From contig NZ_JAMXFA010000020.1 of NCBI RefSeq assembly GCF_025370785.1, forward strand, positions 1 to 64,000: a DNA stretch of 64,000 nucleotides, given 5' to 3'. The notes under the pieces are model-generated. The model did not search any database, was not told the origin of the DNA, and worked only from the letters and a program-made list of their open reading frames with translations. Shown here one piece after another: positions 1 to 58,818 of this stretch (position 1 is its first letter; every line of letters begins with the position of its first letter). The DNA comes from Laspinema olomoucense D3b. GTDB taxonomy: Bacteria > Cyanobacteriota > Cyanobacteriia > Cyanobacteriales > Laspinemataceae. A program made the position numbers and the translations under genes.

Positions 1-2175
<2,175 letters not shown>

Positions 2176-3025
2176 TTATCTTGTCTTTATTTCCACTGTA
2201 GGCAACAACCATTTGTAATCTGCACGGCAATGTTCAGGCGGTCCCGGTATTGCCGAAACTATCATGTTTTCCCTATAACAACGTTATCGCACCATGAGCC
2301 GACTACTGACAAACGGCTGCGAGATTCCCCAAAAAAACGCCGTATTTCAGATTGTTGATTGAAAATTCAGAATTTCTTTCCATCAATTAGGTATAAATTC
2401 TCATTAATTTTATTTGCTCCACCCCAAATTTAAGCCCAAAAACTAGCCTAAACCCTGAACAAAATCAAGAGTTTTTATTTTATATTTTTTGTATTTGTAG
2501 TGAAAAATTCAGCCGTTTATTCTTTTCGATAGCCGCCCTAAATTAATTCAAAAATCCTTGACCAAAGGAGGGGGAGCATCTGGCTTTTTATTATTGGCCG
2601 TAGGAAGCCAGATGCTCCCCTTCCTTACTTTTAAAATCGGTATATAGCCCCTCTAAATTAATTCAAAAATTCTTAAAAGATTTAGTTTTAGCGTTTGCTC
2701 TCCCTTGAATTAGGAGGGAAATCAGATGCTCCCCAGGCTCAATTTTTGGGTGTGAATGCTGGAACAGAGACCCTATATAAATAATACTTGCCCTAAAAAT
2801 TCAATTGTTCATCTTCCCCAAAACGTCAAGCTATTTTATATTTAATCAATCCATTTAATAACAAAATCAAGGAACGTAAACGGATAAACCAATACAGACT
2901 CACAGGTCATTCGAGGGAACGTCGGAAGTTGATCGCCCTAACCCTAAAACTGAGGGCGACTTGCTCCTCAACTGCAAACGCTCCGGATTGGATCAGAGCA
3001 ATCCAATCCTTACTTTGAATTGCCG
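2176..3025. other. AT-rich intergenic spacer with palindromic elements
   Basis: About 850 bp with no convincing gene. It is AT-rich and contains a perfect 16-bp inverted repeat at 2571-2620, a duplicated flank (AAATTAATTCAAAAAT at about 2540 and 2657) and a solitary CAGATGCTCCCC half element near 2723. Nothing else recognisable was seen. Confidence 0.6.
2571..2620. repeat. Palindromic element, 16-bp perfect arms
   Basis: GGGGAGCATCTGGCTT is followed 18 bases later by its exact reverse complement AAGCCAGATGCTCCCC. The arms resemble those at 4869-4919 (GTGGGAGTATC / GATGCTCCCAC) and, more loosely, 52091-52145, suggesting a dispersed REP-like family. It is far from any gene end, so a terminator role is unlikely here. 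Confidence 0.85.
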
Positions 3026-3205
3026 CTAATTTTTCGCCGGGGATGAGGGTGGCGGCGGAATTTTCCCATCGTTATTGGCTCCTTCTACAGCTTTCTCAAT
3101 AATAAATGCGGCTAAGTTAGCCACAGGGCGTCCTTGACTGTCTGCCCACCGTTCGAGGGCATCATAGACGGCATCGGGGAGGGTTACATGGACTCGTTTA
3201 CTCAC
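3026..3205 (-). CDS. Small ribbon-helix-helix (CopG/Arc-type) DNA-binding protein
   Basis: A 59-aa protein starting at a GTG; it is the only start in this frame because a TGA lies six codons upstream. The N-terminal segment KRVHVTLPDAVYDALERWAD followed by GRPVANLAAFIIEKAV fits the beta-strand/helix/helix pattern of ribbon-helix-helix regulators, and the C-terminus is a short proline-rich tail (PPPPSSPAKN). It is transcribed away from the coiled-coil gene at 3587, and the 381-bp space between them carries six TTAAGGAC direct repeats, which would suit an RHH operator. Function as repressor, antitoxin or partition-type protein is not distinguishable; no toxin gene is adjacent. Confidence 0.75.
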   Translation of the reverse strand: MSKRVHVTLPDAVYDALERWADSQGRPVANLAAFIIEKAVEGANNDGKIPPPPSSPAKN

Positions 3206-3334
3206 TGTTTTGTCTCGATGTCAACAGTTTTATGATACATCGTTGGAGCTACAATGGACGTTAGCTTGACAAATAGGGAACCAATCCGCTTCGGTAAGGT
3301 ACCCTGTTGTGATAAACTAGGTACTAAGGAAAAA

Positions 3335-3364
3335 CCGCGCTCTGTCCGGCAAGACAGAACGCGG
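3335..3364 (-). terminator. Rho-independent terminator-like hairpin (minus strand)
   Basis: CCGCGCTCTGTC and GACAGAACGCGG form a 12-bp stem with one mismatch around a six-base loop. Read on the minus strand the stem is followed by a run of five T, the layout of an intrinsic terminator. It lies upstream of the RHH gene with no annotated minus-strand gene feeding into it, so it may end an antisense or small RNA starting in the repeat region. Confidence 0.5.
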
Positions 3365-3489
3365 GTAAATGTTAAGCCTAACCGCTTATTCAAGCCACGG
3401 ATAGGGGATCAAAATCATTTGAAACTCTCAGGTCTAACCACACTGAGGTTCTTAACGTACAAGGACCATTCTCGTAAGCACAAGAACAG

Positions 3490-3582
3490 TTAAGGACAGT
3501 TAAGGACAATCCAGAACGGTTAAGGACTATCTAAGGACAATCCAGAACAGTTAAGGACTATTAAACTTAAACCATTAAGGAC
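3490..3582 (+). repeat. Array of six TTAAGGAC direct repeats upstream of the coiled-coil gene
   Basis: Copies of TTAAGGAC begin at 3490, 3500, 3520, 3531 (CTAAGGAC), 3551 and 3575, often followed by AATCCAGAAC. Spacings of 10, 20, 11, 20 and 24 bp are near multiples of a helical turn. The last copy contains the AAGGA Shine-Dalgarno of the gene starting at 3587. The pattern resembles iterons or an operator for a dimeric repressor such as the adjacent RHH protein; that link is inference. Confidence 0.8.
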
Positions 3583-3586
3583 AATT

Positions 3587-4753
3587 ATGGCACAGACGAC
3601 GGAAGGTATCAACCCATCTCCCCTAGATTATGGAAATTTACCCCCCAATGTAGTAGAAGCGGCGGAGGCGGTGGTGTCCCGGATCCGCGATCGCATCAAA
3701 ACCGGGACCATTCAGCAGATTGAGAACGGGTGCGACTTGCTGGAAACGAAGCAGCGATTGGGAAAAGTCTTATTTAAAGTCTGGGTCGATCGCTATTTTG
3801 ATGGGTCGGAATATCTCGCGGGAAATTTAATCAAGGTGGCGGAACTGGTGCAGCGGATTCCCCACCGGATCGATGAAATGGCGGGATGGAGTATTTCTGC
3901 ATTAGCGGCCCTCAGTGGCGGGTCCGATCGCCTCGCGGAAAAGATTTTAACCTCTGGCGATCGCCCCAGTGCCACGATGATTAGACAACGGGTCCGCACG
4001 GAACGCACCGGCAAACCGGCGATCGCCCGCAAACCTTCCCCGAGAAGATTTACCCAAGAAGAGGTAGACCGAAAAATCGCCGAGGCGATCGCCAAAAAGG
4101 ACCAAGAACTGGCAACCCTACGAATTCAGTTAGAACAAGAACTCCAGGACCGAGTACAGGCAGAATTTCGTCAGGCGCGGGATGCGGGATTGCTGGCGGC
4201 AAAAACGGAAGTCGCTGCCGCGCAGGAACTACGGGAAGAACTCCGGGCTAAAAATGCCGAACTTGCTGCCGAATTGCAACAAAAACAAGCCGAACTAGAA
4301 GGGATTGCTCAGTTACAGCGGGAAAATCAACTCAAGGATGAACGAATTGCTGATTTAGAGGCTGCCTTAGAACAGTCTAAACAGGAAAGCTGGGAAAATA
4401 CTTTTAATGCGGAAGCTGCCAAGGTGGTGAATGCGGACTTAGAAAAAGCCTATCAGCCTTTGGTGGAAAAGTTGGACCGGATGACCCAAAAGGTGGCCCA
4501 GCAAGAGGAGGAACTTCAGCGCTATCGTCAAGGGGAAGGGAAAGTCGCCGCAGAGGAACCGCAAGTGGCTCAGGAAACCTGGGCGATCGCCTCGGACTTT
4601 GGGCAGTTGGCGGAGACCCTGGATTTACCGGGATGGAGTGGTCGAGGTTACCGGGCTTCCGATGGGATGCTATACACCAATTTAGTCTCGGCTATCTCTC
4701 ATTTTATTCAGGATTTTCAAGGAAATTCTTCCTCTAATTCTCGCCATTTTTAA
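3587..4753 (+). CDS. Hypothetical coiled-coil protein, partner of the TTAAGGAC array
   Basis: A 388-aa protein with no firm family assignment. Residues 1-150 are helical, with a segment (IENGCDLLETKQRLG, SISALAALSGGSDRLAEKIL) faintly reminiscent of DUF3102-type phage/plasmid proteins. Residues about 165-310 form a long charged coiled coil, and the C-terminus contains a short compact segment (DLPGWSGRGYRASDGMLYTN). The start is an ATG preceded by AAGGA, supplied by the last TTAAGGAC repeat. The gene is divergent from the RHH gene at 3026. The repeat-rich promoter and coiled-coil architecture suggest a DNA-associated or partition-like role, but this is inference only. Confidence 0.8.
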   Translation: MAQTTEGINPSPLDYGNLPPNVVEAAEAVVSRIRDRIKTGTIQQIENGCDLLETKQRLGKVLFKVWVDRYFDGSEYLAGNLIKVAELVQRIPHRIDEMAGWSISALAALSGGSDRLAEKILTSGDRPSATMIRQRVRTERTGKPAIARKPSPRRFTQEEVDRKIAEAIAKKDQELATLRIQLEQELQDRVQAEFRQARDAGLLAAKTEVAAAQELREELRAKNAELAAELQQKQAELEGIAQLQRENQLKDERIADLEAALEQSKQESWENTFNAEAAKVVNADLEKAYQPLVEKLDRMTQKVAQQEEELQRYRQGEGKVAAEEPQVAQETWAIASDFGQLAETLDLPGWSGRGYRASDGMLYTNLVSAISHFIQDFQGNSSSNSRHF

Positions 4754-4868
4754 GGGGTTAGTCTTGAGGGGTTTGAGGGTTATCGGTTCGATGGGTTTTG
4801 CCCCCCTGACCCTGTAACCCCGGCAAAATAGGGGAATGAAAAAAACCCGGACAGGGTTGCCTTAAAGG

Positions 4869-4919
4869 AGTGGGAGTATCTTTCTCTACTGGAGAAGTAG
4901 GGAGCAAGATGCTCCCACT
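4869..4919. repeat. Imperfect palindromic element (GTGGGAGTATC...GATGCTCCCAC)
   Basis: The left arm AGTGGGAGTATCTTTCTCT and right arm AGGGAGCAAGATGCTCCCACT pair with a few C-to-T type mismatches around TACTGGAGAAGT. It is related to the elements at 2571-2620 and 52091-52145. It lies between the convergent coiled-coil and HEAT-repeat genes and could act as a bidirectional terminator. Confidence 0.65.
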
Positions 4920-4987
4920 GCTCAATTCTAGGGTCGGACTGCTGGCAGAAATGCTCTAGGGAGAGTGTAATTTGTCGATCGCTCTGA

Positions 4988-5665
4988 TTAAACAGCCGTT
5001 GCATCAGCTAATCGTTTCAGAGAAAGGTTCGCGGCTTCAGAAACTTGGAAATGACTATCTTTTGCCATGTATTTGAGGGCGGATATGCTTTTTTCACTGG
5101 GGAGATGTCCGAGAGCTTCGGCAAGGCGCTGACGCACTAGCCAATCCTTGGACTGGACGAAGCGCAAGAGGCGATCGACGGCTTCAATACATTTGATTTC
5201 CCCAAGGGCTGCGATCGCCGCTTGTTGCAAGACGATTTCTTCGCTATCCAAGGCACTGAGCAACACTTCCTGCGCACGAAGGTCCTTGAGATTTCCGAGG
5301 GAGACTGCGGCACTAAAGCGCACCAGCCAATCGGTATCTTCATAGAAGGCGCGCACTAGGGGTTCCAAGGCTCTTTCGTCTTCGAGATATCCCAAGGCCC
5401 CCGCTGCACCGGCACGGATGCTGTAATCGGGTTCGCCTTCGAGGATTTTTACCAGAATGGGAAAGGATTGGGCAGTGGCTTTGATGCCTAAGGCAAAGAC
5501 TGCCATTGATCGCACTTGGAGGTTCTCATCATTGAGGAGTTTTTCGATAAAGGGGAAGGCATCCGCAGCGGGGACGTTCCGCAAGGAAGCCAAGCCCACC
5601 ATGCGATCGCCGGAATTCTCACTCTCCAGCTTGACGGCTATTTCTTCTAAAGTTAATAGGGACAT
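4988..5665 (-). CDS. HEAT-repeat protein, phycobilisome lyase-like (NblB-like)
   Basis: A 225-aa all-helical protein made of about six HEAT/PBS-lyase repeats, for example IRAGAAGALGYLEDERALEPL, WLVRFSAAVSLGNLKDLRA and WLVRQRLAEALGHLPSEKSIS, each around 31 residues. This arrangement is typical of the CpcE/CpcF/NblB group; the single-polypeptide size fits NblB-like proteins that promote phycobilisome degradation or bilin handling rather than the CpcE/F lyase heterodimer. The ATG at 5665 (MSLLTLEEIA) is preferred; an in-frame ATG at 5698 would add 11 residues. No phycobiliprotein gene is adjacent, so the exact target is unknown. Confidence 0.8.
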   Translation of the reverse strand: MSLLTLEEIAVKLESENSGDRMVGLASLRNVPAADAFPFIEKLLNDENLQVRSMAVFALGIKATAQSFPILVKILEGEPDYSIRAGAAGALGYLEDERALEPLVRAFYEDTDWLVRFSAAVSLGNLKDLRAQEVLLSALDSEEIVLQQAAIAALGEIKCIEAVDRLLRFVQSKDWLVRQRLAEALGHLPSEKSISALKYMAKDSHFQVSEAANLSLKRLADATAV

Positions 5666-5910
5666 AGATTTAGAAAATTTACAAAAGTTTACATTCACTT
5701 TTTTATTATAGAGCCAGGACCGAGGGATGGGGAGAAAATTGGCCCTGTTTAGGGAGGGATTTCCGAACCGGCGATCGCCGAGTCTGGGGGTACGGGTTAG
5801 AAACCGGGTTTATGCTTTGAAAATCTGTGACAATTCTCGCCCCAGAAAGGGCGATGAAACTGGGTAACCTTCCAATTGGTTTAATAAAGAGGCGATCGCC
5901 TCCTCATGGT

Positions 5911-7344
5911 TTAGTCTGTAGCCTTGACAGAAGCCTGCTGCTTCCGTTCATAAAGCTGCAATAAAATCGCCGCATGAACTTCCCGAGAGAGGGGATAAAA
6001 ATAAGCCAAAATTAAACCCCCGATTAACAACAGGGTCGGCAGAGGGCCGATCGCCATGCGAATGGCGAACAAAGCCGAGTCTGGTTGTTCGGGAATTGTG
6101 GTACTTCCAGCGGATTCTATGAAACCCGACCATTGGAGAGTTTGTCCTACAAAGAAAATCCCCAATCCTAACCCCAGTTTTTGTAAAAAGACCATAAACG
6201 AATAGAAGATTCCTTCCCGACGTTGACCTGTATTTAATTCATCTAAATCAATCACATCGGTGAGCATGGACCAAGGAACGAGATAAGCTGTTGCCACGCC
6301 CACCCCGGCTAGGACTGCTAGGAAGAACATCAAATCCATGCGATCGCGCGGTAAAAAGAAAAGTCCCGCCTGAGCAATAATCCAAAACCCCATGCCCATA
6401 AAATAAACAGCTTTTCTCCCCAAAGATTTGCTAATTTCGCTCCAGACAAATAGCATGATAATCGCCACAACTTGCACAATTAAGGCGACTTCAAAGAATG
6501 AATCTCGCCGCATCCAACTCACGACAAAATAGGGGATAATTGTTGTGGTTAATTGCAAAGCTAACCAGGAAAAAAGATAAATCCCACTCACAAACTGAAA
6601 CGGACGATTGCTCAGGGCAATTTTGAACTGAGAAATCAGAGATAAACTTGTGGGTTCGGCTTGGGTTTGATAGCGTTCTCGGGTTCCGAAGACGCACCAA
6701 TAGAGGGGAAATACCGAGAGAATCGCACAAATGCCGCCTAGGGCGACATACATTTGTTTCAGGTCAGGCATCAGTTGAGTCAAGACCACACCCAAAATGA
6801 GAGCTAAGATACTCCCCCCAATGGAGAAGGCAAACCGAAAGCTGTTGAGACTGGTGCGCTCGTTGTAGTCCTCAGTGAGTTCCGGCGTGAGGGCTGTATA
6901 AGGGAGATTCACTGCGGTATAAGCGGTTTGGAACAAGATACTCACCACGATGTAATAGGTGAACAGCGCCCACTGATTCACCTGGGGATCGGCGCTGAAG
7001 TGAGGGACTAACCAATGGAGGAAAAAAGACAGACCAAAGGGTAGGGAACCAAAGAGCATCCACGATCGCCTGCGTCCCCAGCGAGACCGGGTGCGATCGC
7101 TCAACATCCCGATCATCGGGTCATTGATGGCATCCCACACCTTACCAATCATCAGGACTGTTCCTGCCAATCCGGGGTCTAAACCCGCCACCTCCGTTAA
7201 AAAGATTAAGAGGCTAAACGAGATTAAAATTGTGGTGATCCCAGCCCCCATATCTCCAGCCCCATAAGCCAGTTTTGTGGAAAGACTGAGTTTGTCGGGC
7301 TGGGATCTGTCGGAAGATGGATCGGAAGGGGACGAGTGATTCAT
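5911..7344 (-). CDS. GPH-family (MelB-like) sugar:cation symporter, MFS fold
   Basis: A 477-aa membrane protein with about 12 hydrophobic segments after a hydrophilic Ser/Asp-rich N-terminus. KLAYGAGDMGAGI, VWDAINDPMIGMLSDRTRSR and the basic loop RWGRRRSW are hallmarks of the glycoside-pentoside-hexuronide:cation symporter family, in which the DP-x-G-x-x-SDR motif lies in the TM2-loop2-3 region. Substrate is not predictable from sequence; cyanobacterial members may move sugars or other small organics across the plasma membrane. It is divergent from the phosphoribosyltransferase gene starting at 7544, leaving about 200 bp for two promoters. Confidence 0.88.
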   Translation of the reverse strand: MNHSSPSDPSSDRSQPDKLSLSTKLAYGAGDMGAGITTILISFSLLIFLTEVAGLDPGLAGTVLMIGKVWDAINDPMIGMLSDRTRSRWGRRRSWMLFGSLPFGLSFFLHWLVPHFSADPQVNQWALFTYYIVVSILFQTAYTAVNLPYTALTPELTEDYNERTSLNSFRFAFSIGGSILALILGVVLTQLMPDLKQMYVALGGICAILSVFPLYWCVFGTRERYQTQAEPTSLSLISQFKIALSNRPFQFVSGIYLFSWLALQLTTTIIPYFVVSWMRRDSFFEVALIVQVVAIIMLFVWSEISKSLGRKAVYFMGMGFWIIAQAGLFFLPRDRMDLMFFLAVLAGVGVATAYLVPWSMLTDVIDLDELNTGQRREGIFYSFMVFLQKLGLGLGIFFVGQTLQWSGFIESAGSTTIPEQPDSALFAIRMAIGPLPTLLLIGGLILAYFYPLSREVHAAILLQLYERKQQASVKATD

Positions 7345-7543
7345 GGACTTTGTTTTTTCCGGGGAAAGAGCGTGGCAGGATTACTGCAATTGCTGGAGGA
7401 GGACAACAAGCGCCAGTGACGATACAAATTTCAGCGGCGCTTTTCTGTATTGTGGCATACAAGACGGTTTGTCAATTTTATGCTATTTTGGTCTATTACC
7501 TTTATTCCTGCTTCCTGTTGCTACTGTTGGAAAAATTGCCCCC

Positions 7544-8065
7544 ATGCGTGACCTTCATATCGGTTGGGCCGAGTACCACCAAAAAATAGAGCAGCTTGCG
7601 GTCCAAATTTATCAGTCCAATTGGCATTTTGACCAGATCGTTTGTATTGCCAAAGGAGGGCTGCGGGTTGGGGATATCCTCGCCCGGATTTACGATCGCC
7701 CTTTAGGGATTTTATCCACCGCCTCTTATGGGGGTGCAGAGGGCAAACACCGAGGAGCCTTGAAGATTGCCCGCCACTTAACGGCGATCGGCGATACCCT
7801 CGGCCCTTATGTTTTATTAGTAGATGACCTGGTAGATACCGGAATTTCTCTCAAGGAAACCAAACTTTGGCTCAATTGCCATTATGAAAATCAGATTCAG
7901 GAGATTCGCACCGCAGTCCTCTGGTACAAAGCTTGTTCGGAAATTCAACCGGATTACTATGTCGATTACCTGACGGATAATCCCTGGATTCATCAACCGT
8001 TTGAAGGGTATGAACAAATCACCCCAGAGCAACTCGCTCAGAGCTATCAAACGATCGCAAGTTAA
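7544..8065 (+). CDS. Phosphoribosyltransferase family protein
   Basis: A 173-aa soluble protein with the type I phosphoribosyltransferase fold. The PRPP-binding loop VLLVDDLVDTGIS is intact and an upstream IVCIAKGGLRVGDILAR segment matches the PP-loop region of hypoxanthine/xanthine phosphoribosyltransferases. It probably transfers phosphoribose to a purine base for salvage, but the hood region is too divergent to name the base. The ATG at 7544 (MRDLHIGW) is chosen; longer frame upstream encodes low-complexity residues not typical of the family and overlaps the divergent transporter. Confidence 0.85.
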   Translation: MRDLHIGWAEYHQKIEQLAVQIYQSNWHFDQIVCIAKGGLRVGDILARIYDRPLGILSTASYGGAEGKHRGALKIARHLTAIGDTLGPYVLLVDDLVDTGISLKETKLWLNCHYENQIQEIRTAVLWYKACSEIQPDYYVDYLTDNPWIHQPFEGYEQITPEQLAQSYQTIAS

Positions 8066-8091
8066 TAGACTTATGGCAGAATTGTCTTAAG

Positions 8092-8110
8092 CCCCCCTTA
8101 ATAAGGGGGG
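8092..8110. repeat. REP-like palindrome CCCCCCTTAATAAGGGGGG
   Basis: A near-perfect 19-bp palindrome followed by TTGGGGGGATC. The same ~30-bp element occurs in reverse orientation at 63719-63737. A T-rich stretch follows (CTTTTTTT), so this copy could also terminate the phosphoribosyltransferase transcript. Confidence 0.8.
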
Positions 8111-8193
8111 TTGGGGGGATCAATCTTTTTTTGCCAGAGGTCTAATCTCAAATCACGAATTTAGGGCGAAAATTTTCGGTGAAATTGGGCTGG

Positions 8194-8275
8194 GCTAAGA
8201 CTTACGCATTTACTTGTTGAGTGGTAGGGTCAATTCGCATTCTGAACCCTACATTTAGAGAGGGTTAGTCTTAGC
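8194..8275. repeat. MITE-like element with 9-bp terminal inverted repeats
   Basis: GCTAAGACT at 8194-8202 and its reverse complement AGTCTTAGC at 8267-8275 enclose 64 bp starting TACGCATTTAC. The right end abuts the stop codon of the AEC carrier gene. An analogous element with GGACTTACGG ends lies at 35213-35299. Confidence 0.6.
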
Positions 8276-9247
8276 TTAAACGGTGGGAATTCCAAACATT
8301 AAGACCCAAATCGGGAGGGTGACTAATAAGCAAACAGAACCGAGTCCCAGGGCAGTCACGGCTAAATCGCGATCGAGGTTGTAGGTTTCCGCTAGGACTA
8401 GGGTGGCAAAGGCTGGAGGCATTGCCATTTGTAACACCAGAATCAGCAATGCAGGGCGATCGAGTCCCCAAAAGGACAGGATGATGCCGAGGAACAGTGG
8501 CACAATTAACATTTTAATGACGAGACTGACTGAGGCGGGTTTGAGACTACTCCAAGAATGTAATTGGCTCAGTCTCATGCCACAGAGAATCAAAGACAAG
8601 GCGATCGCACTCCAAGCAAACCGCTGTAAACTATTTTCCAAGAGGGGTGGTAGGGGAATATCTCGCACCAATAACCCCAACCCTAAACTCCACAGGGTGG
8701 GATTGTAGAGGATGGCATGGATAAACTGTTTGTAACTTTTCGACCCTTCTCCAAATCGGGAGGCTAATACCGCACCTAAGCCGTAAGCTCCGATCACCGT
8801 ACCCAACAAATCATAAAATAGCGCCCAGGCAAAATATTGTTCTCCCACTAATGCCAAAGCAACGGGATAGCCAATAAAGCCTGTATTACCGACCATTGTT
8901 GAAAGGACAAAACTGCCTTGAGTGGGGAGATGAGACCATTGGGATGATTGTTCTAGCTCTAGGGAAGCAGAACCGGGATGGGTTTTACTCCTGAGCCAAA
9001 GCCAGCTAAGCCCCACGCCCAGTAGAATTGCCACCCAGGCGATCGCTGGTGCTAACCAGATTGAACCTGATAAATCCGAGCGGCGGACGAAGGCAATCAC
9101 CCCGATGGGAACGCCAATCCAAAACAGAAATTTACCGATATAAATCGGGATTTTAGGGGGCAGCAGCCGACCCAGAATAAATCCTAATAACGCTAATCCC
9201 CCAAGTTGGAGGTAGAGTTTTAGGAGATGAATTCCCAGAACGAGCAT
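8276..9247 (-). CDS. AEC (auxin efflux carrier) family transporter
   Basis: A 323-aa integral membrane protein with about ten hydrophobic segments. The N-terminal GGLALLGFILGRLLPP, the central VLSTMVGNTGFIGYPVALAL and the C-terminal LILVLQMAMPPAFATLVLAE segments are characteristic of the Mem_trans/AEC family, bile/arsenite/riboflavin transporter-like superfamily carriers that export organic anions such as malonate or auxin-like compounds. The conserved NxGFxGxP motif in the first half is intact. Substrate in this organism is unknown. The gene stands alone between a MITE-like element and a repeat-rich spacer. Confidence 0.87.
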   Translation of the reverse strand: MLVLGIHLLKLYLQLGGLALLGFILGRLLPPKIPIYIGKFLFWIGVPIGVIAFVRRSDLSGSIWLAPAIAWVAILLGVGLSWLWLRSKTHPGSASLELEQSSQWSHLPTQGSFVLSTMVGNTGFIGYPVALALVGEQYFAWALFYDLLGTVIGAYGLGAVLASRFGEGSKSYKQFIHAILYNPTLWSLGLGLLVRDIPLPPLLENSLQRFAWSAIALSLILCGMRLSQLHSWSSLKPASVSLVIKMLIVPLFLGIILSFWGLDRPALLILVLQMAMPPAFATLVLAETYNLDRDLAVTALGLGSVCLLVTLPIWVLMFGIPTV

Positions 9248-9821
9248 AATAATTTAAGGGAGGATTAGTTTTCATTGAGTTGGGGGGTTATCCCCTGATT
9301 CAAAGGAGTTTTTTCACTGCGTCTCAATGGGCAGGATAACGATGCCGTAGCCCGTTCCAATTCAAACACCGCTTGGACCAACTCTCAATGGGGAAATCAT
9401 GAAGAAATTATGCAGCAATTTGGGATTAATATTGCCATAGAACCAAGGGCTGAGTCCGTAGCACTTGACGCTAAACGGGGGGATTTTTGTCATTGGTCAT
9501 TGGTCGTTGGTCCCTGGTCGTTGGTCGTTGGTCATTGGTCATTGGTCGTTGGTCCCTGGTCATTGGTCCCGGGTCCCTGTACAAACAACAAATGACCAAT
9601 GACATAAGACCAATGACAAAGGACAAACGACATAAGACAAACGCCAAATGACCCTCTTCGGTCCCGATCTACAAGGATTCGGTAGAATGCTTTTGTAACC
9701 CTGTAGGGGAGAGGGAAGCTCAACCCCTGAAGGATCCTCCGTCCAAAGATCCGTCAGGGCTTCCGCAGCCGTTCATTATCATAGTTTAGGCAATCCGAGT
9801 CAATCTGTAGGAGTCGAGTCA
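9248..9821. other. Intergenic spacer with decayed reading frame and STRR array
   Basis: About 570 bp. From about 9290 to 9480 one plus-strand frame is open and protein-like (LRLNGQDNDAVARSN, HEEIMQQFGINIAIE) but lacks a good start and runs straight into the heptamer repeat array at 9491-9653, so it looks like a gene remnant. The last 160 bp form the leader of the carboxypeptidase gene. Confidence 0.4.
9491..9653. repeat. STRR: inverted heptamer arrays (ATTGGTC / ACCAATG)
   Basis: Twelve consecutive 7-bp units (ATTGGTC, GTTGGTC, CCTGGTC variants) fill 9492-9575. About ten units of the complementary heptamer (ACCAATG, ACAAACG, ACATAAG variants) follow to 9653. The two halves can fold into a long imperfect hairpin. 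Heptameric short tandemly repeated repetitive sequences are known in filamentous cyanobacteria. Confidence 0.92.
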
Positions 9822-10649
9822 TTGAATAAGGCAACTGTGTCGGGACAAGCGTCGAAAACCTCGACATTTATGGGGGAGGACATTCCTCAAGCGGTTAGAG
9901 ATACCTCCGAGAAAGTCTCTACGGTTCAGGGGTCGAAATCGGTCAAATGGATTGTAATTGCCCTGATTGCCGGGACAGTTGCCCTAGTCGCAGGGGTGCT
10001 GGTGGCATGGCAGGGGGGAATGCTGGGACTCCTGAATAACTCCCAGGTGGCTCAAACGGAGCAAACGGATTCCCCGGACCCTAATGCTACTGTAGACCCA
10101 ACTGCCCCGAAAACAGAGACGTTACTGGGTCACTTCCCCTATAAAGAAGCGCCTCGCGAAGACCTTCAGCCGATTTCCAGTGATGGGAGAATCCTGATGC
10201 GTCAAGCGGCAGCTAGAGCGTTTTTGGAGATGAAAGAGGCGGCGCGATCGCAAGGGGTCTCTCTGGTCCCGATTTCTGGATTTCGCAGCGAGGAAGACCA
10301 GAAATATCTGTTTTTTGAGGTAAAAGCGCAACGGGGACAGGTTACCACGGAACGAGCAGAAGTCAGCGCACCTCCAGGGTACAGCGAGCACCATACCGGC
10401 TATGCGGTAGATATTGGGGATGCCAATCTTCCGGCAACGGATTTGAGTCCGAGCTTTGAAAATACCCCGGCGTTCCAATGGATGAAAGAGAATGCTGCCT
10501 ATTATAGTTTTGAGGTATCGTTTCCGAAAGGAAATACTCAAGGGGTGACTTATGAACCCTGGCATTGGAGATTTGTGGGCGATCGCGACAGTCTGGAAAC
10601 CTTTTATAAAGCCCGAAACCCGCAAAAAAATATAGAAACTCAACCCTAA
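9822..10649 (+). CDS. VanY-type D-alanyl-D-alanine carboxypeptidase (peptidase M15B)
   Basis: A 275-aa membrane-anchored peptidoglycan carboxypeptidase. A single transmembrane helix (about 45-70, WIVIALIAGTVALVAGVLVA) follows a short cytoplasmic tail, then an acidic Pro/Thr linker and an extracytoplasmic M15B domain. Zinc and catalytic residues are visible in SEHHTGYAVDIGD (SxHxxGxAxD) and EPWHWRF (ExxxH). It should trim the terminal D-Ala from muropeptide stems. The start is a TTG at 9822, supported by a GTAGGAG Shine-Dalgarno nine bases upstream. The M41-like protease gene follows by 63 bp on the same strand, probably cotranscribed. Confidence 0.9.
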   Translation: MNKATVSGQASKTSTFMGEDIPQAVRDTSEKVSTVQGSKSVKWIVIALIAGTVALVAGVLVAWQGGMLGLLNNSQVAQTEQTDSPDPNATVDPTAPKTETLLGHFPYKEAPREDLQPISSDGRILMRQAAARAFLEMKEAARSQGVSLVPISGFRSEEDQKYLFFEVKAQRGQVTTERAEVSAPPGYSEHHTGYAVDIGDANLPATDLSPSFENTPAFQWMKENAAYYSFEVSFPKGNTQGVTYEPWHWRFVGDRDSLETFYKARNPQKNIETQP

Positions 10650-10712
10650 CTGGATGTTGGGTTGCCCTCGTTCTACTCTACTTTTGCTCCTCCCCATTCC
10701 GACCCCTGCATC

Positions 10713-11405
10713 ATGAGTCAAACAGCGCTTAATCTGGTTGCGATTTCGGTTTTTTTGATGACCCTTTCCGTATTGCTCGGACCCATCCTAGAGCTATCTC
10801 CCCTGATTGGTGCGATCGCCACCGCCAGTCTATTAGGCTTTTTTACCCTAGATACCCTCGGCTGGCAAGGAAAAGGTGCTAACCTGCTCGTGGATGTTTT
10901 TGCCGGAATGTCCGAAGATCATCGCCGACGGGTATTGCGTCATGAAGCCGGACATTTTTTAGTTGCCTACTTATTAGAAATTCCCATCACCAGCTATGCC
11001 TTAAATGCCTGGGAAGCCTTTAAACAAGGCCAATCCGCTGGCGGTGGCGTGCAATTTGACGATCAAGAACTCCTCGCCGAACTCCAACAAGGCAGTCTCT
11101 CTGCCCAATTATTTGACCGTTACTGCATTGTCTGGATGGCAGGGATAGCCGCTGAAACCTTAACCGGCGATCGGGCTGAAGGTGGTGCAGAAGACAAAGC
11201 CAAATTAAAAGCAATCTTGGCCCAAAACCGCAAATCTGCGATCGATGCTCAACTCAAAGAACGGTGGGCCATTTTGCAAGCCAAAACCCTCATAGAATCT
11301 CATTTAGATGCCTATCAAGCCTTAGTCACCGCAATGGAACAGCGACTAGCTGTGAGTGAGTGTTATCAAATTTTAGCCAGTCGGATTCCTATAAAGGCTG
11401 AATAA
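10713..11405 (+). CDS. FtsH-like (M41) zinc protease domain protein without AAA domain
   Basis: A 230-aa protein with two N-terminal hydrophobic segments (LVAISVFLMTLSVLLGPILE and LIGAIATASLLGFFTL) followed by a cytoplasmic metalloprotease-like region. RRRVLRHEAGHFLVAYLL carries the HEAGH zinc motif of M41 peptidases, and a downstream MAGIAAETLTGDRAEGGAED segment resembles the third-ligand region of FtsH. There is no AAA ATPase domain, so it is not FtsH; such stand-alone proteins are conserved in cyanobacteria and plastids. The ATG at 10713 (MSQTALN) is preferred over an upstream TTG at 10662 that would add a poorly conserved 17-residue extension. Likely cotranscribed with the VanY-type gene. 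Confidence 0.85.
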   Translation: MSQTALNLVAISVFLMTLSVLLGPILELSPLIGAIATASLLGFFTLDTLGWQGKGANLLVDVFAGMSEDHRRRVLRHEAGHFLVAYLLEIPITSYALNAWEAFKQGQSAGGGVQFDDQELLAELQQGSLSAQLFDRYCIVWMAGIAAETLTGDRAEGGAEDKAKLKAILAQNRKSAIDAQLKERWAILQAKTLIESHLDAYQALVTAMEQRLAVSECYQILASRIPIKAE

Positions 11406-11437
11406 ATGAACCCATTTACCTCGAATTAGTTTTGAGT

Positions 11438-11451
11438 AACGACTGAAGTCG
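11438..11451. repeat. Partial copy of the dispersed AACGACTGAAGTCG motif
   Basis: AACGACTGAAGTCG is identical to the first 14 bases of the motif at 58819-58843 and related to copies at 54366-54391 and 35897-35934. CGACTGAAGTCG is itself nearly palindromic. It lies 27 bases upstream of the GIY-YIG gene. Confidence 0.6.
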
Positions 11452-11477
11452 TTTTAATAAATGAGCCACTTAAAACA

Positions 11478-12413
11478 ATGTTACAAGAATTCATTACGTT
11501 ACCCTACCTAAAACTGGCAGATAGACAAAGGTTGCCGGAGTGTTCTGCCATTTACTTTGCCAGTGCTGGTGAGCAAATTCTCTATGTTGGTTTGGCAACC
11601 AATCTTAGAAATCGTTGGCAGAATCATCACCGTTTTCCGCAACTTGAAGCAGTTAATCGACGGTGCGAAGTCAAACTTTTTTGGCTGAATTGCGATCAAA
11701 GTCAGCTTAAGGAGCTAGAACGTCAGTATATCGAGTATTACTGTCCAACCTTAAACCAAACAACAGTACCAAAGCAGCAAATCGTACCCAGCTTTCAGAT
11801 GCTAACGCAGTTGTTGAAGAACCTCAATCAAGGGGTGCTTGGCTTGGGGGTCTGTCCAGCCGACAACCAACGGCTAAAAACAGTTATTTTGGGTTATTTG
11901 GCTAATTACGGAGAGACACTGCGTGCAACAACAAATCTTCGCAAGAGTTTGCAAGCACTTAATAAAAAGCCAAACAGTTTATTTAGATGGACGGAGGTGC
12001 TTCGACGTAAAGATTGTGCTCATTGGCGGGCAAGGTGTAACGGTATTGAAATTCGCCTCATCCCGTGGCTTGGAGAACGTATCATGCATCACCCTACGAT
12101 GTATGAAGTCATGAGAGAGAAACGCTTTGCTGGATTGACTTCAATCCCTAGCCTTGAATACGATGCCATGCGGCAGGACGTCAAGGCAATGTCTTTTAAA
12201 CAAAGACTGGAGTTAGCTCGTAGCTTGGAAATCGGTTGGAAGTTATTTCCCTTAGAGTGTGGGTCACAATTCCGTAGTGTCAGTGGTGTAGAAATCCTTT
12301 GTCTTACCGCTACACAACTGGAAACCTTGTTACCACAACACTTGTACTTAAAAGAGATGTATCCTGGAATACTTGCCATCAATGATGATCCAGTACCAAA
12401 GTTGTTGTTTTAG
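11478..12413 (+). CDS. GIY-YIG nuclease domain protein
   Basis: A 311-aa protein. The N-terminal ~90 residues are a GIY-YIG fold: AIYFASAGEQILYVGLATNL supplies the IY and YVG strands, RNRWQNHH the Arg/His helix and ERQYIEYYCPTLN the metal-binding Glu region. Such domains cut DNA in repair, restriction and mobile-intron enzymes. The remaining 200 residues have no recognised domain. The surrounding codon usage is more A/T-rich than neighbouring genes and it lacks HIP1 sites, consistent with recent acquisition. A short minus-strand frame with two CxxC motifs ends 13 bp downstream. Confidence 0.82.
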   Translation: MLQEFITLPYLKLADRQRLPECSAIYFASAGEQILYVGLATNLRNRWQNHHRFPQLEAVNRRCEVKLFWLNCDQSQLKELERQYIEYYCPTLNQTTVPKQQIVPSFQMLTQLLKNLNQGVLGLGVCPADNQRLKTVILGYLANYGETLRATTNLRKSLQALNKKPNSLFRWTEVLRRKDCAHWRARCNGIEIRLIPWLGERIMHHPTMYEVMREKRFAGLTSIPSLEYDAMRQDVKAMSFKQRLELARSLEIGWKLFPLECGSQFRSVSGVEILCLTATQLETLLPQHLYLKEMYPGILAINDDPVPKLLF

Positions 12414-26990: not shown

Positions 26991-29647
26991 GTCCCAATGA
27001 CCCCTAATCCCTTTCAGGGATTGAAACGAGAATCGCGTGAGGATTGCATCAGGGGGGATAAGTCCCAATGACCCCTAATCCCTTTCAGGGATTGAAACTT
27101 TGACTCATGACGCCACCTTTTCCGCGCTGGGGTCCCAATGACCCCTAATCCCTTTCAGGGATTGAAACTGAGTTGCGCTCATCTAACAGACTTACTCAGT
27201 TGGCGGGTCCCAATGACCCCTAATCCCTTTCAGGGATTGAAACGGTAACTGAACGGGATTTTAGCGGTCTAAGACTTGTCCCAATGACCCCTAATCCCTT
27301 TCAGGGATTGAAACAAAGATAGGCAAATCCTCGCCAGCGGGTACAACGGTCCCAATGACCCCTAATCCCTTTCAGGGATTGAAACATAACAGCCTGGGCA
27401 AATGCGGATGCTTTCGGGATTCGTCCCAATGACCCCTAATCCCTTTCAGGGATTGAAACTGGGCTTGTGGGGCGATCAGGCAATGCCGAGGACTTAGCCC
27501 GGTCCCAATGACCCCTAATCCCTTTCAGGGATTGAAACCCAGATAGACACGACCAAATCTTCTAAGAAGTAGGGTCCCAATGACCCCTAATCCCTTTCAG
27601 GGATTGAAACCGTTCTGCATAGACACTCGTGCCACCACTCCCGATGTGTCCCAATGACCCCTAATCCCTTTCAGGGATTGAAACATGAAGCGCCCCAGTC
27701 AATGGGTCTATGACATCCGCAGTCCCAATGACCCCTAATCCCTTTCAGGGATTGAAACCCTGAACCTCCATAAGGTTGTCCTGGATTCTACAGTCCCAAT
27801 GACCCCTAATCCCTTTCAGGGATTGAAACGTCAACCTCTTTTCTACTGAGACGCTCCGCAACGTCCCAATGACCCCTAATCCCTTTCAGGGATTGAAACC
27901 CAGCCAGATTGAACCAACTCGGGGCGATCGATGGTCCCAATGACCCCTAATCCCTTTCAGGGATTGAAACTGCATGGAATTGAATGCACCACCCAGGGAG
28001 TGTGTCCCAATGACCCCTAATCCCTTTCAGGGATTGAAACCCGTTTGCGATCGCGGATTACCCCCAAATCAGGGAAAGTCCCAATGACCCCTAATCCCTT
28101 TCAGGGATTGAAACTCGCAGTGGGGACACTTGACATACCACTGGAACACATGTCTCGTCCCAATGACCCCTAATCCCTTTCAGGGATTGAAACGAATGGT
28201 CCTATTCCCCAAGGATTGGCGATTCTAGTCCCAATGACCCCTAATCCCTTTCAGGGATTGAAACAAAATTTCCTGGATGGGTGGGGCAACCTTATTAGTC
28301 CCAATGACCCCTAATCCCTTTCAGGGATTGAAACTCTTTGTGATTGCAACTCAAGCCCATCTTTCATCCGTGTCCCAATGACCCCTAATCCCTTTCAGGG
28401 ATTGAAACAGGTATTACTGAGACTGTCGCTTGTAAGTTACTCGTCCCAATGACCCCTAATCCCTTTCAGGGATTGAAACTACGGTGGGTCCCTGAAGAAG
28501 TAGATCAATTTTAGTCCCAATGACCCCTAATCCCTTTCAGGGATTGAAACGCAACGGGAATCCTTCCACGCGGCCAAAATGGGCGGGGTCCCAATGACCC
28601 CTAATCCCTTTCAGGGATTGAAACTTTCCTTAGAAACATCACTATAATCTGCTGTTTACTATGTCCCAATGACCCCTAATCCCTTTCAGGGATTGAAACT
28701 TGATGTTTGCGCCCATAAGGGGAAATTACTCCGTCCCAATGACCCCTAATCCCTTTCAGGGATTGAAACTCAAATTTTGACCCTTTGGCGGTGATAGTAA
28801 AGCTAGTCCCAATGACCCCTAATCCCTTTCAGGGATTGAAACGACTAATGGCCGCAGCAACAAAGGCAGGATTGAGTCCCAATGACCCCTAATCCCTTTC
28901 AGGGATTGAAACTCAAGTTGCTGAAATTTGCAAGGAAGATGGCTCAGTCCCAATGACCCCTAATCCCTTTCAGGGATTGAAACCTGTGATTATTCCGCAC
29001 TTGCGGAATATTGGGAGAGTCCCAATGACCCCTAATCCCTTTCAGGGATTGAAACTTTACCTTGCCAGAAAGCAAGACAGGATAGAAAAAGTCCCAATGA
29101 CCCCTAATCCCTTTCAGGGATTGAAACTTGAACAAACCCGCCACATTTCCCCCTGCCGCACATAGTCCCAATGACCCCTAATCCCTTTCAGGGATTGAAA
29201 CGAACCTGGGAAAATCTGGGACGGGGGAGCATTCGGTCCCAATGACCCCTAATCCCTTTCAGGGATTGAAACTCGATACCTCAACCAGCAGGAGATCGAA
29301 CTCGCCCAAAAGTCCCAATGACCCCTAATCCCTTTCAGGGATTGAAACGTAACGAGAGGGAGTTTGTGACTATCACTCCAAGTCCCAATGACCCCTAATC
29401 CCTTTCAGGGATTGAAACTTGCCATTTCCCAGGGTCTTCTATGATGATTTCTGTTTCAACCACGGGCAGTCCCAATGACCCCTAATCCCTTTCAGGGATT
29501 GAAACATTCAACCAAGCTCCTTAAAAATCGCGCTGCACGTCCCAATGACCCCTAATCCCTTTCAGGGATTGAAACTTATGCTTGGTTTTATTCTTGTAAC
29601 ATCGATACAAGTCCCTATGACCCCTAATCCCTTTCAGGGATTGAAAT
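26991..29647 (+). CRISPR. CRISPR array, 37 repeats / 36 spacers, no cas genes in window
   Basis: Thirty-seven 37-bp repeats beginning GTCCCAATGACCCC and ending TTTCAGGGATTGAAAC, with an internal AATCCCTTTCAGGGATT stem. Spacers are 33-42 nt except the 34th internal one (29419-29468, 50 nt). All repeats appear identical apart from the last (29611-29647), which has GTCCCTATGA at its start and ends in T instead of C, marking the trailer. The ATTGAAAC 3' handle is usual for cyanobacterial type I-D/III arrays; subtype cannot be fixed without cas genes. Frames that run through the repeats are not genes. Confidence 0.99.
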
Positions 29648-54290: not shown

Positions 54291-56813
<2,523 letters not shown>

Positions 56814-58689: not shown

Positions 58690-58818
58690 GGGGATGGGGA
58701 GGATGGGGAGGATGGGGGAGATGGGGGAGATGGGGAGGATGGGGGAGATGGGGAGGATGGGGGAGATGGGGAGGATGGGGAGGATGGGGAGGATGGGGGA
58801 GATGGGGAGGATGGGGGG
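58690..58818. repeat. 9-bp minisatellite (GGGGATGGA orientation)
   Basis: GGGGATGGGGAGGATGGGG-type units of nine bases run for about 130 bp on the plus strand, the complement of the CCCCCATCT unit at 1-117. It ends exactly at the dispersed motif copy at 58819. Frames through it are spurious. Confidence 0.9.

Follow-up and report, generated by a model that had tools for sequence, protein, structure and literature searches.

A possible KfrA-like module in Laspinema olomoucense: a divergent ribbon-helix-helix and coiled-coil gene pair around a conserved array of short repeats

KfrA of the plasmid RA3 is described as an autoregulator with an N-terminal helix-turn-helix (HTH) and an alpha-helical tail, and its own promoter carries five 9-bp direct repeats of a motif found nowhere else in the plasmid (PMC7783346). 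Ribbon-helix-helix (RHH) genes of the RHH_5 kind have been reported, under the name Arc_2, upstream of cas12k in reverse orientation and were proposed as regulators (PMC9938897). We analysed a window of 64,000 nucleotides from Laspinema olomoucense D3b (contig NZ_JAMXFA010000020.1, positions 1 to 64,000), in which an RHH gene and the gene of a 388-amino-acid (aa) coiled-coil protein diverge around an array of short repeats. We tentatively read this locus as a chromosomal, KfrA-like autoregulated module whose array is likelier to be read by the coiled-coil protein than by the RHH protein, a reading to which we give slightly less than an even chance. Binding of the 388-aa protein to the 10–11-bp repeats would be cooperative, with the coiled coil linking adjacent dimers on the array, and the bound protein would repress transcription of its own gene and hinder ribosome access via the last repeat. 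The RHH protein would be a second, local regulator of the same intergenic gap, as was proposed for RHH_5 beside cas12k. On plasmids, proteins of this family may serve stable maintenance; on the chromosome, it would at the minimum control its own abundance and may also organise local DNA.

The repeat array and the conserved gap

The locus comprises the following features.

3026–3205, minus strand: RHH protein gene (59 aa, GTG start, Pfam RHH_5), a putative divergent regulator
3206–3586: gap of 381 bp with candidate regulatory elements, conserved by seven-genome identity and apparently non-coding
3488–3586: array of YTAAGGAC and AATCCAGAAC units, mostly in 10–11-bp steps, in the leader of the coiled-coil gene (95.5% identity in seven genomes)
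3575–3582, plus strand: last repeat, at the Shine-Dalgarno position of the coiled-coil gene (kept in seven of eight genomes; L020 has TTAAGGTC)
3587–4753, plus strand: coiled-coil protein gene (388 aa, in eight of eight Laspinema genomes)

The original prediction of two divergent open reading frames (ORFs), for a 59-aa RHH protein and a 388-aa coiled-coil protein, was confirmed, with 381 bp between them. The RHH ORF carries the Pfam RHH_5 domain (75.2 bits, E 3.3e-21, cut-off 26). Both genes occur in all eight Laspinema genomes and adjoin in all seven that are readable there, and in each of these seven the RHH protein beside the coiled-coil gene is intact at 59 aa. The other seven Laspinema copies of the 388-aa protein are 91–95% identical to it, and its gene is 90–95% identical to those of Laspinema palackyanum D2a, Laspinema sp. 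D2d, Oscillatoria sp. HE19RPO, Phormidium pseudopriestleyi and an Oscillatoria metagenome-assembled genome. A check for co-conservation, proposed together with the prediction, gave a positive result inside the genus: both genes and paired repeats are present in eight of eight genomes.

The array is real, but it does not consist of six identical repeats. Exact TTAAGGAC was found at 3490, 3500, 3520, 3551 and 3575, and the unit at 3531 is the variant CTAAGGAC. The spacings are 10, 20, 11, 20 and 24 bp; the first four are near multiples of a helical turn, as predicted, and the last is not. Two AATCCAGAAC units are interleaved in the array, and a 31-bp composite unit is also present. The last repeat does occupy the predicted Shine-Dalgarno position of the coiled-coil gene (TTAAGGACAATT-ATG). 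Among 5000 dinucleotide shuffles of the gap, none contained an 8-mer in five copies; the maximum was four, in five shuffles. Counted over the whole window, the repeat is less striking (6 versus 2.08 expected, equalled by 1 of 100 shuffles). Pairs of TTAAGGAC 2–30 bp apart occur at this locus in all eight Laspinema genomes, and two stray single pairs were found elsewhere (G005:C168, G007:C16). Further 9-bp tandem arrays lie at 1–117, 54295–54658 and 58692–58817 of the window.

To measure conservation, we used the seven Laspinema genomes with full upstream DNA; L022, whose contig ends 72 bp upstream, was left out. The gap (380–411 bp) showed a mean pairwise identity of 94.8%, compared with 84.4% at third codon positions of the coiled-coil gene and 86.0% at those of the RHH gene. 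In gapped alignments, the DNA flanking the pair is 73.2% identical over 400 bp to the left of the RHH gene and 71.2% over 230 bp to the right of the coiled-coil gene. Where the left gap can be aligned locally, the aligned pieces are 76–88% identical. A protein-coding gap was considered and rejected: the variable columns of a 79-aa plus-strand ORF (3254–3493) are spread evenly over the codon phases (12/10/11), and its frame is broken in L020 and L023. Thus, because identity exceeds that of third codon positions and flanking DNA, and because the variable columns are even and two frames are shifted, the gap is, judged by these alignments, non-coding and under selection.

The array might also have arisen when the leader, with its Shine-Dalgarno sequence, was duplicated in tandem, and it would then be kept by chance or for the translation rate and have no protein reader, which we regard as very unlikely. 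The repeat unit does contain AAGGA, the number of units varies (L064 (=L006) and L023 are longer, L022 is shorter), and tandem arrays are frequent in the genome. However, conservation of the array equals that of the remaining gap and exceeds that of third codon positions, whereas a control repeat array at 9489–9652 of the window aligns in pieces, with 78–91% identity, in L063, L019 and L020; L064 has no match to the control and, by gene order, ends before that place. The clustering of the array at this locus and its conservation, the latter unlike that of the control array, support a KfrA-like module.

Another explanation, which we consider unlikely, is that the minus strand of the gap encodes a structured RNA of about 240 nucleotides, running from over the coiled-coil start codon across the array to a terminator at 3364–3335. 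Such an RNA would either regulate the coiled-coil mRNA in antisense or serve as an attenuated RHH leader, with the repeats forming the arms of a long hairpin, and this explanation may also hold alongside the KfrA-like module. Three features belong to it.

3335–3364, minus strand: intrinsic-terminator-like hairpin, then TTTTT (stem kept in seven of seven genomes)
3335–3577, minus strand: hypothetical structured transcript, proposed from the fold z
3584–3612, minus strand: promoter-like TTGATA-17-CATAAT with TG before the second hexamer, over the start codon (10 of 12 matches)

In addition to the conserved terminator stem, the promoter-like hexamers are identical in eight of eight genomes, which proves little, since the site is mostly coding sequence. 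Over 3328–3577 the minus strand folds with z about -6.8 to -7.0 and the plus strand with -3.4; for the array alone in the seven genomes, the values are -3.2 to -8.7 and -1.2 to -2.0, respectively. Compared with controls that keep the repeat architecture, however, the array fold reaches only z -2.3 (fraction 0.023), and among 83 pairs there was no compensatory double change, the covariation term being only -0.55. Antisense terminator-like hairpins were found upstream of 13 of 26 genes of the coiled-coil family and of 26 of 169 control ORFs (Fisher p 2e-4), and sense ones upstream of 1 of 26 and 20 of 169, but the rows of this count are not independent, several being near copies and one start being mis-set (L060), and the window's own hairpin, just beyond the 250-nucleotide limit, was scored absent. 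Strong plus-strand folds occur nearby too (2520–2679, z -7.1; 4800–4959, z -4.7), the promoter-like sites (5 versus 3.0) and terminator-like sites (4 versus 3.5) of the region are hardly above shuffles, and the antisense promoter is inconsistent among distant family members. No Rfam match was found inside the gap at E 1; weak matches lie only at 2564–2677, 4867–4921 and 4926–4964.

Two side observations concern hairpins. The six bases between the arms at 3335–3364 read CGGCAA or TTGCCG depending on the species, that is, a small inversion within the hairpin. The gap between the histidine kinase and RHH genes holds, at 2520–2679 of the window, a very stable hairpin region on the plus strand (z about -7) with weak Rfam matches to a microRNA and a plastid 3'UTR.

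The coiled-coil protein and its family

Within the coiled-coil gene, three parts can be distinguished.

3641–4015, plus strand: residues 19–143, predicted ParB/Noc/KorB-type helical DNA-binding domain (AlphaFold2 and VIA-align)
4055–4528, plus strand: residues 157–314 (about 158), a long single helix in the AlphaFold2 model, taken as coiled coil
4631–4717, plus strand: C-terminal motif GWSGRGYRASDG...AISHFIQDF, common to several relatives in the alignment and absent or altered in L054, L066 and L070

AlphaFold2 builds the N-terminal domain from eight helices (residues 20–141, confidence score pLDDT 57–92 by blocks of ten). VIA-align superposed it on 6t1f_D with Z 9.4 and a root-mean-square deviation of 2.7 over 110 aligned residues, and rows 1–24 for the isolated domain are all ParB, Spo0J, Noc, KorB, SopB or Raf1 (Z 9.8 to 5.3), with unrelated rows from 4.9. 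We read it as a predicted ParB-type DNA-binding domain. Comparison of the 388-aa protein with Pfam and NCBIfam gave no ParB match, including to the CTP-binding ParB N-domain. When solved structures were searched by sequence, the RHH protein had two weak matches (E 0.14, 0.34) and the family profile 32 weak ones, nearly all over the coiled coil. A role in a defence system was rejected, the PADLOC matches being weak and over the coiled coil only.

It turned out that the 388-aa protein is no orphan but, as the searches indicate, a member of a little-studied cyanobacterial family. Relatives were found in 12 of 99 genomes by plain search (E 0.001) and in 28 of 291 genomes of the order by profile search, the eight Laspinema genomes being included in both; six genomes from other genera of the same taxonomic family gave no match in the plain search. 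A collection that holds plasmids alone yielded eight records with the window protein as query (four conjugative, one mobilizable, three non-mobilizable) and ten with the G220 homologue (six, one and three, respectively). The hosts are Trichormus, Anabaena, Calothrix, Dolichospermum, Nostoc, Sphaerospermopsis and Gloeothece, and the matched features are annotated as hypothetical proteins. Outside the genus, seven copies were located on contigs longer than 5 Mb: G220 has four of them, and G516, G059 and G128 have one each. The family occurs on both plasmids and chromosomes of cyanobacteria, so that a chromosomal copy is not exceptional. The L. olomoucense genome is in 104 contigs (7.0 Mb); in its most complete relative the coiled-coil gene is on a 7.69-Mb contig (G004:C1), which indicates a chromosomal location.

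The original prediction saw a resemblance to plasmid control or partition modules. This was borne out by the 8–10 plasmid records, the predicted ParB-family fold, a ParG partner (L049) and a paralogue near ParA and ParB genes. Three further paralogues exist in the L. olomoucense genome (contigs C80, C98 and C41). The C41 paralogue (L122, G000:C41:26000-42000) is 665 aa long, has a divergent Xre-type protein and lies within 4 kb of genes for a ParA-type protein (TIGR03453, 1.6e-30, below the model cut-off), ParB (TIGR00180, 124.6 bits, over the cut-off) and an SSB-like protein named by eye. Thus, the claim that no ParA or replication gene is present is uncontradicted by the ORFs of window 1–12000, among which reading by eye showed no parA beside the window gene, but it does not extend to this paralogue of the same genome. 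The neighbouring genes encode a histidine kinase, the coiled-coil protein and a HEAT protein; no toxin gene is among them, and the BrnA-like match of the RHH protein is far below the cut-off. By eye, both genes are absent from five loci beside the histidine kinase in other genera of the taxonomic family, where gene order is too divergent to define an empty insertion site.

Some relatives combine the family domain and a C5 cytosine methyltransferase in one fusion protein (by Pfam in L014/L058, L057 and L060; the tail match of L010/L059 is below the cut-off), and by eye the fusion clusters L057, L058, L059 and L060 resemble mobile elements. A cytosine methyltransferase is also near the relatives in L061 and on Trichormus variabilis plasmid C. 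On the latter (L065, 263247–278695), the family member lies between DISARM genes (drmA, DUF1998, drmC) and the methyltransferase. A phage origin was rejected: the G220 homologue had no match in phage records, the family profile none in viral contigs, and PHROGs gave only weak Arc-like matches for the RHH protein. The available portions of the literature that mentions DUF3102, or cyanobacteria together with KfrA, contain no description of the coiled-coil family that we could find. For this family, whose members are annotated as hypothetical proteins in the plasmid records, the locus would supply a context, a function that can be tested and a link to ParB-type DNA binding.

Candidate readers of the array

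We examined the divergent partners at 22 family loci without methyltransferase fusion. At 15 of them (window, L049, L050, L052, L053, L054, L065, L066, L068, L070, L012, L122, L124, L125, L127), an ORF that is DNA-binding, or looks so, diverges within about 400 bp. Since several rows are closely related, these are not 15 independent events. An Xre gene is co-oriented in L061 and L121, and no regulator is nearby in L051 (Xre gene 699 bp away), L067, L055, L056 and L034, the last three being a weakly matching clade without a divergent regulator, counted as misses. Eleven of the 15 partners are above Pfam cut-offs. RHH_5 partners were found in the window, L070 (Gloeothece plasmid Cy782203) and L012, a ParG partner in L049, and Xre-type HTH partners in L054, L065, L066, L068, L122 (307 aa), L125 and L127. 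Pfam support is weak for L052 and none for L050 and L124, and the L053 partner was outside the Pfam run. Outside the 22-locus count are the C80-like copies L016–L018, other DUF3102-type loci, L037–L040 and some plasmid matches. L012 (G014) is a doubtful member, found at E 3.9e-4 in the plain search and missed by both profiles. The divergent partner of the coiled-coil gene is exchangeable between RHH, ParG-type and Xre proteins. The L012 locus (G014:C137) has a 26-bp tandem array (5.4 copies) and a leader TTAAGGACAATCTATC-ATG before the gene of the 157-aa doubtful relative, with the RHH_5 gene divergent.

The coiled-coil gene is favoured by position as the owner of the array, since the repeats make up its leader and supply its Shine-Dalgarno site. 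The original prediction took the RHH protein to be the reader instead. In that view, which we think improbable, the RHH protein would occupy the array in the manner of omega or ParG proteins on tandem short repeats and would repress the coiled-coil gene. The RHH gene does adjoin the array in seven of seven readable Laspinema genomes, RHH_5 is divergent from the family gene in L070 and from the doubtful relative in L012, a ParG-type RHH protein is present in L049, and ten-bp steps suit stacked RHH dimers. However, about 280 bp separate the RHH start codon from the beginning of the array, which lies directly next to the coiled-coil gene. In L026/L127, 3.5 copies of a 21-bp repeat run up to the start codon of a family gene with an Xre partner, a parallel to the array here that counts against the RHH protein as the reader.

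Relatives of the RHH protein were found in 86 of 291 genomes of the order, eight of these Laspinema. We read the 22 best RHH loci outside the genus with 1.5-kb flanks, some shortened by contig ends. None of the 22 contains a family protein by tblastn (five family queries, E 0.01), and none contains TTAAGGAC. Thus, together with the Xre-partnered repeats, these loci leave the RHH protein unsupported as the array reader. The 11-bp repeats upstream of the RHH gene at two of them (L153, 3.1 copies; L156, 2.2 copies) give mild support to RHH proteins reading such repeats. At L139, an RHH_5-like gene (1492–1668) that shares 66% identity with the window RHH diverges from a Cas12k gene (1818–3167; NF038191, 550 bits), a pair that fits the published Arc_2 regulators of V-K transposons. 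Because RHH relatives pair with different genes, cas12k among them, the window RHH is probably of a kind that serves as a general local regulator. A remnant of a CRISPR-associated transposon was rejected: no cas12k match was found in the L. olomoucense genome, and one was found in G007.

Besides the repeats at L153 and L156, several points weigh against the coiled-coil protein as reader in a KfrA-like module. The AlphaFold2 input was six near-identical sequences (91–95%). A VIA-align Z under about 13 may reflect only an arrangement common in helical proteins, and Raf1, which is not known to bind DNA, scores level with ParB. In the Foldseek search of the PDB, ParB DNA-binding domains were best but none was under E 0.001, and the 388-aa protein matches neither the DUF3102 nor the KfrA model of Pfam. 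Short tandem arrays are common in the genome (52 TRF rows in the window). Upstream of relatives, a tandem repeat scoring 50 or more was found in only 2 of 22 regions (L026, L012); most relatives are without an array, which argues against a family-wide role for arrays. Accordingly, when we looked for coiled-coil homologues without the repeats and the RHH gene, as the prediction had suggested, they were found outside the genus but not inside it. The location of the family does not imply plasmid maintenance, as seven non-Laspinema copies are found on contigs longer than 5 Mb.

A bolder proposal, which we hold to be quite improbable, is that the ParB-type head and coiled coil form a single-protein segregation or DNA-anchoring module on the chromosome. 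It would nucleate on one unique centromere-like array per genome and tether or bridge DNA. Its level would be controlled by a structured antisense RNA with the array in its hairpin and by an exchangeable divergent regulator (RHH, ParG-type, Xre or perhaps AlpA-like), which changes across the family while the coiled-coil gene stays.

Elsewhere in the window, at 27278–29418, 37-bp repeats alternate with unique spacers in a long array (GTCCCAATGACCCC...GATTGAAAC), by appearance a CRISPR array.

Comparison with described systems

The Arc_2 proteins of type V-K CRISPR transposons share with the window RHH the RHH_5 domain and the position divergent from a presumed target gene, which is cas12k there (PMC9938897) and the coiled-coil gene here. 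The proteins pSK1 Par, RacA and RocS likewise combine a small DNA-binding head with a coiled coil, and RacA binds repeated sites, but their heads are described as MerR-type winged HTH (PMC11500499). Such an HTH is not in the VIA-align list for the N-terminal domain, although that list cannot exclude it, and DUF536, the segment of pSK1 Par and RocS according to the same source, is not among the Pfam matches of the 388-aa protein up to E 1.

With ParB, Noc, KorB and SopB, the 388-aa protein would share the predicted fold of residues 19–143. It differs in the missing Pfam and NCBIfam ParB match, in having no parA seen beside the gene, and in direct repeats in place of a parS palindrome. To the DUF3102 proteins of cyanobacteria there is a profile-profile relation (hhalign) of the N-terminal stretch over about 135 residues (E 2.9e-7), based on three cyanobacterial DUF3102-type proteins, one of which (L013) was shown to match PF11300. 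The window protein does not match PF11300, and the three compared proteins have another C-terminal part.

KfrA_N, the Pfam domain of KfrA, is not among the Pfam matches of the 388-aa protein up to E 1, and therefore we do not claim membership of the KfrA family. The differences from KfrA (IncU/IncP, RA3) are a predicted ParB-like head, repeats in mostly 10–11-bp rather than 9-bp units, a chromosomal gene and a divergent RHH gene. The likeness lies in an N-terminal DNA-binding head, here predicted, a long alpha-helical tail, here helix 157–314 of the model, and several short direct repeats before the protein's own gene, here a candidate operator. KfrA of RA3 is the best working analogue of this locus.

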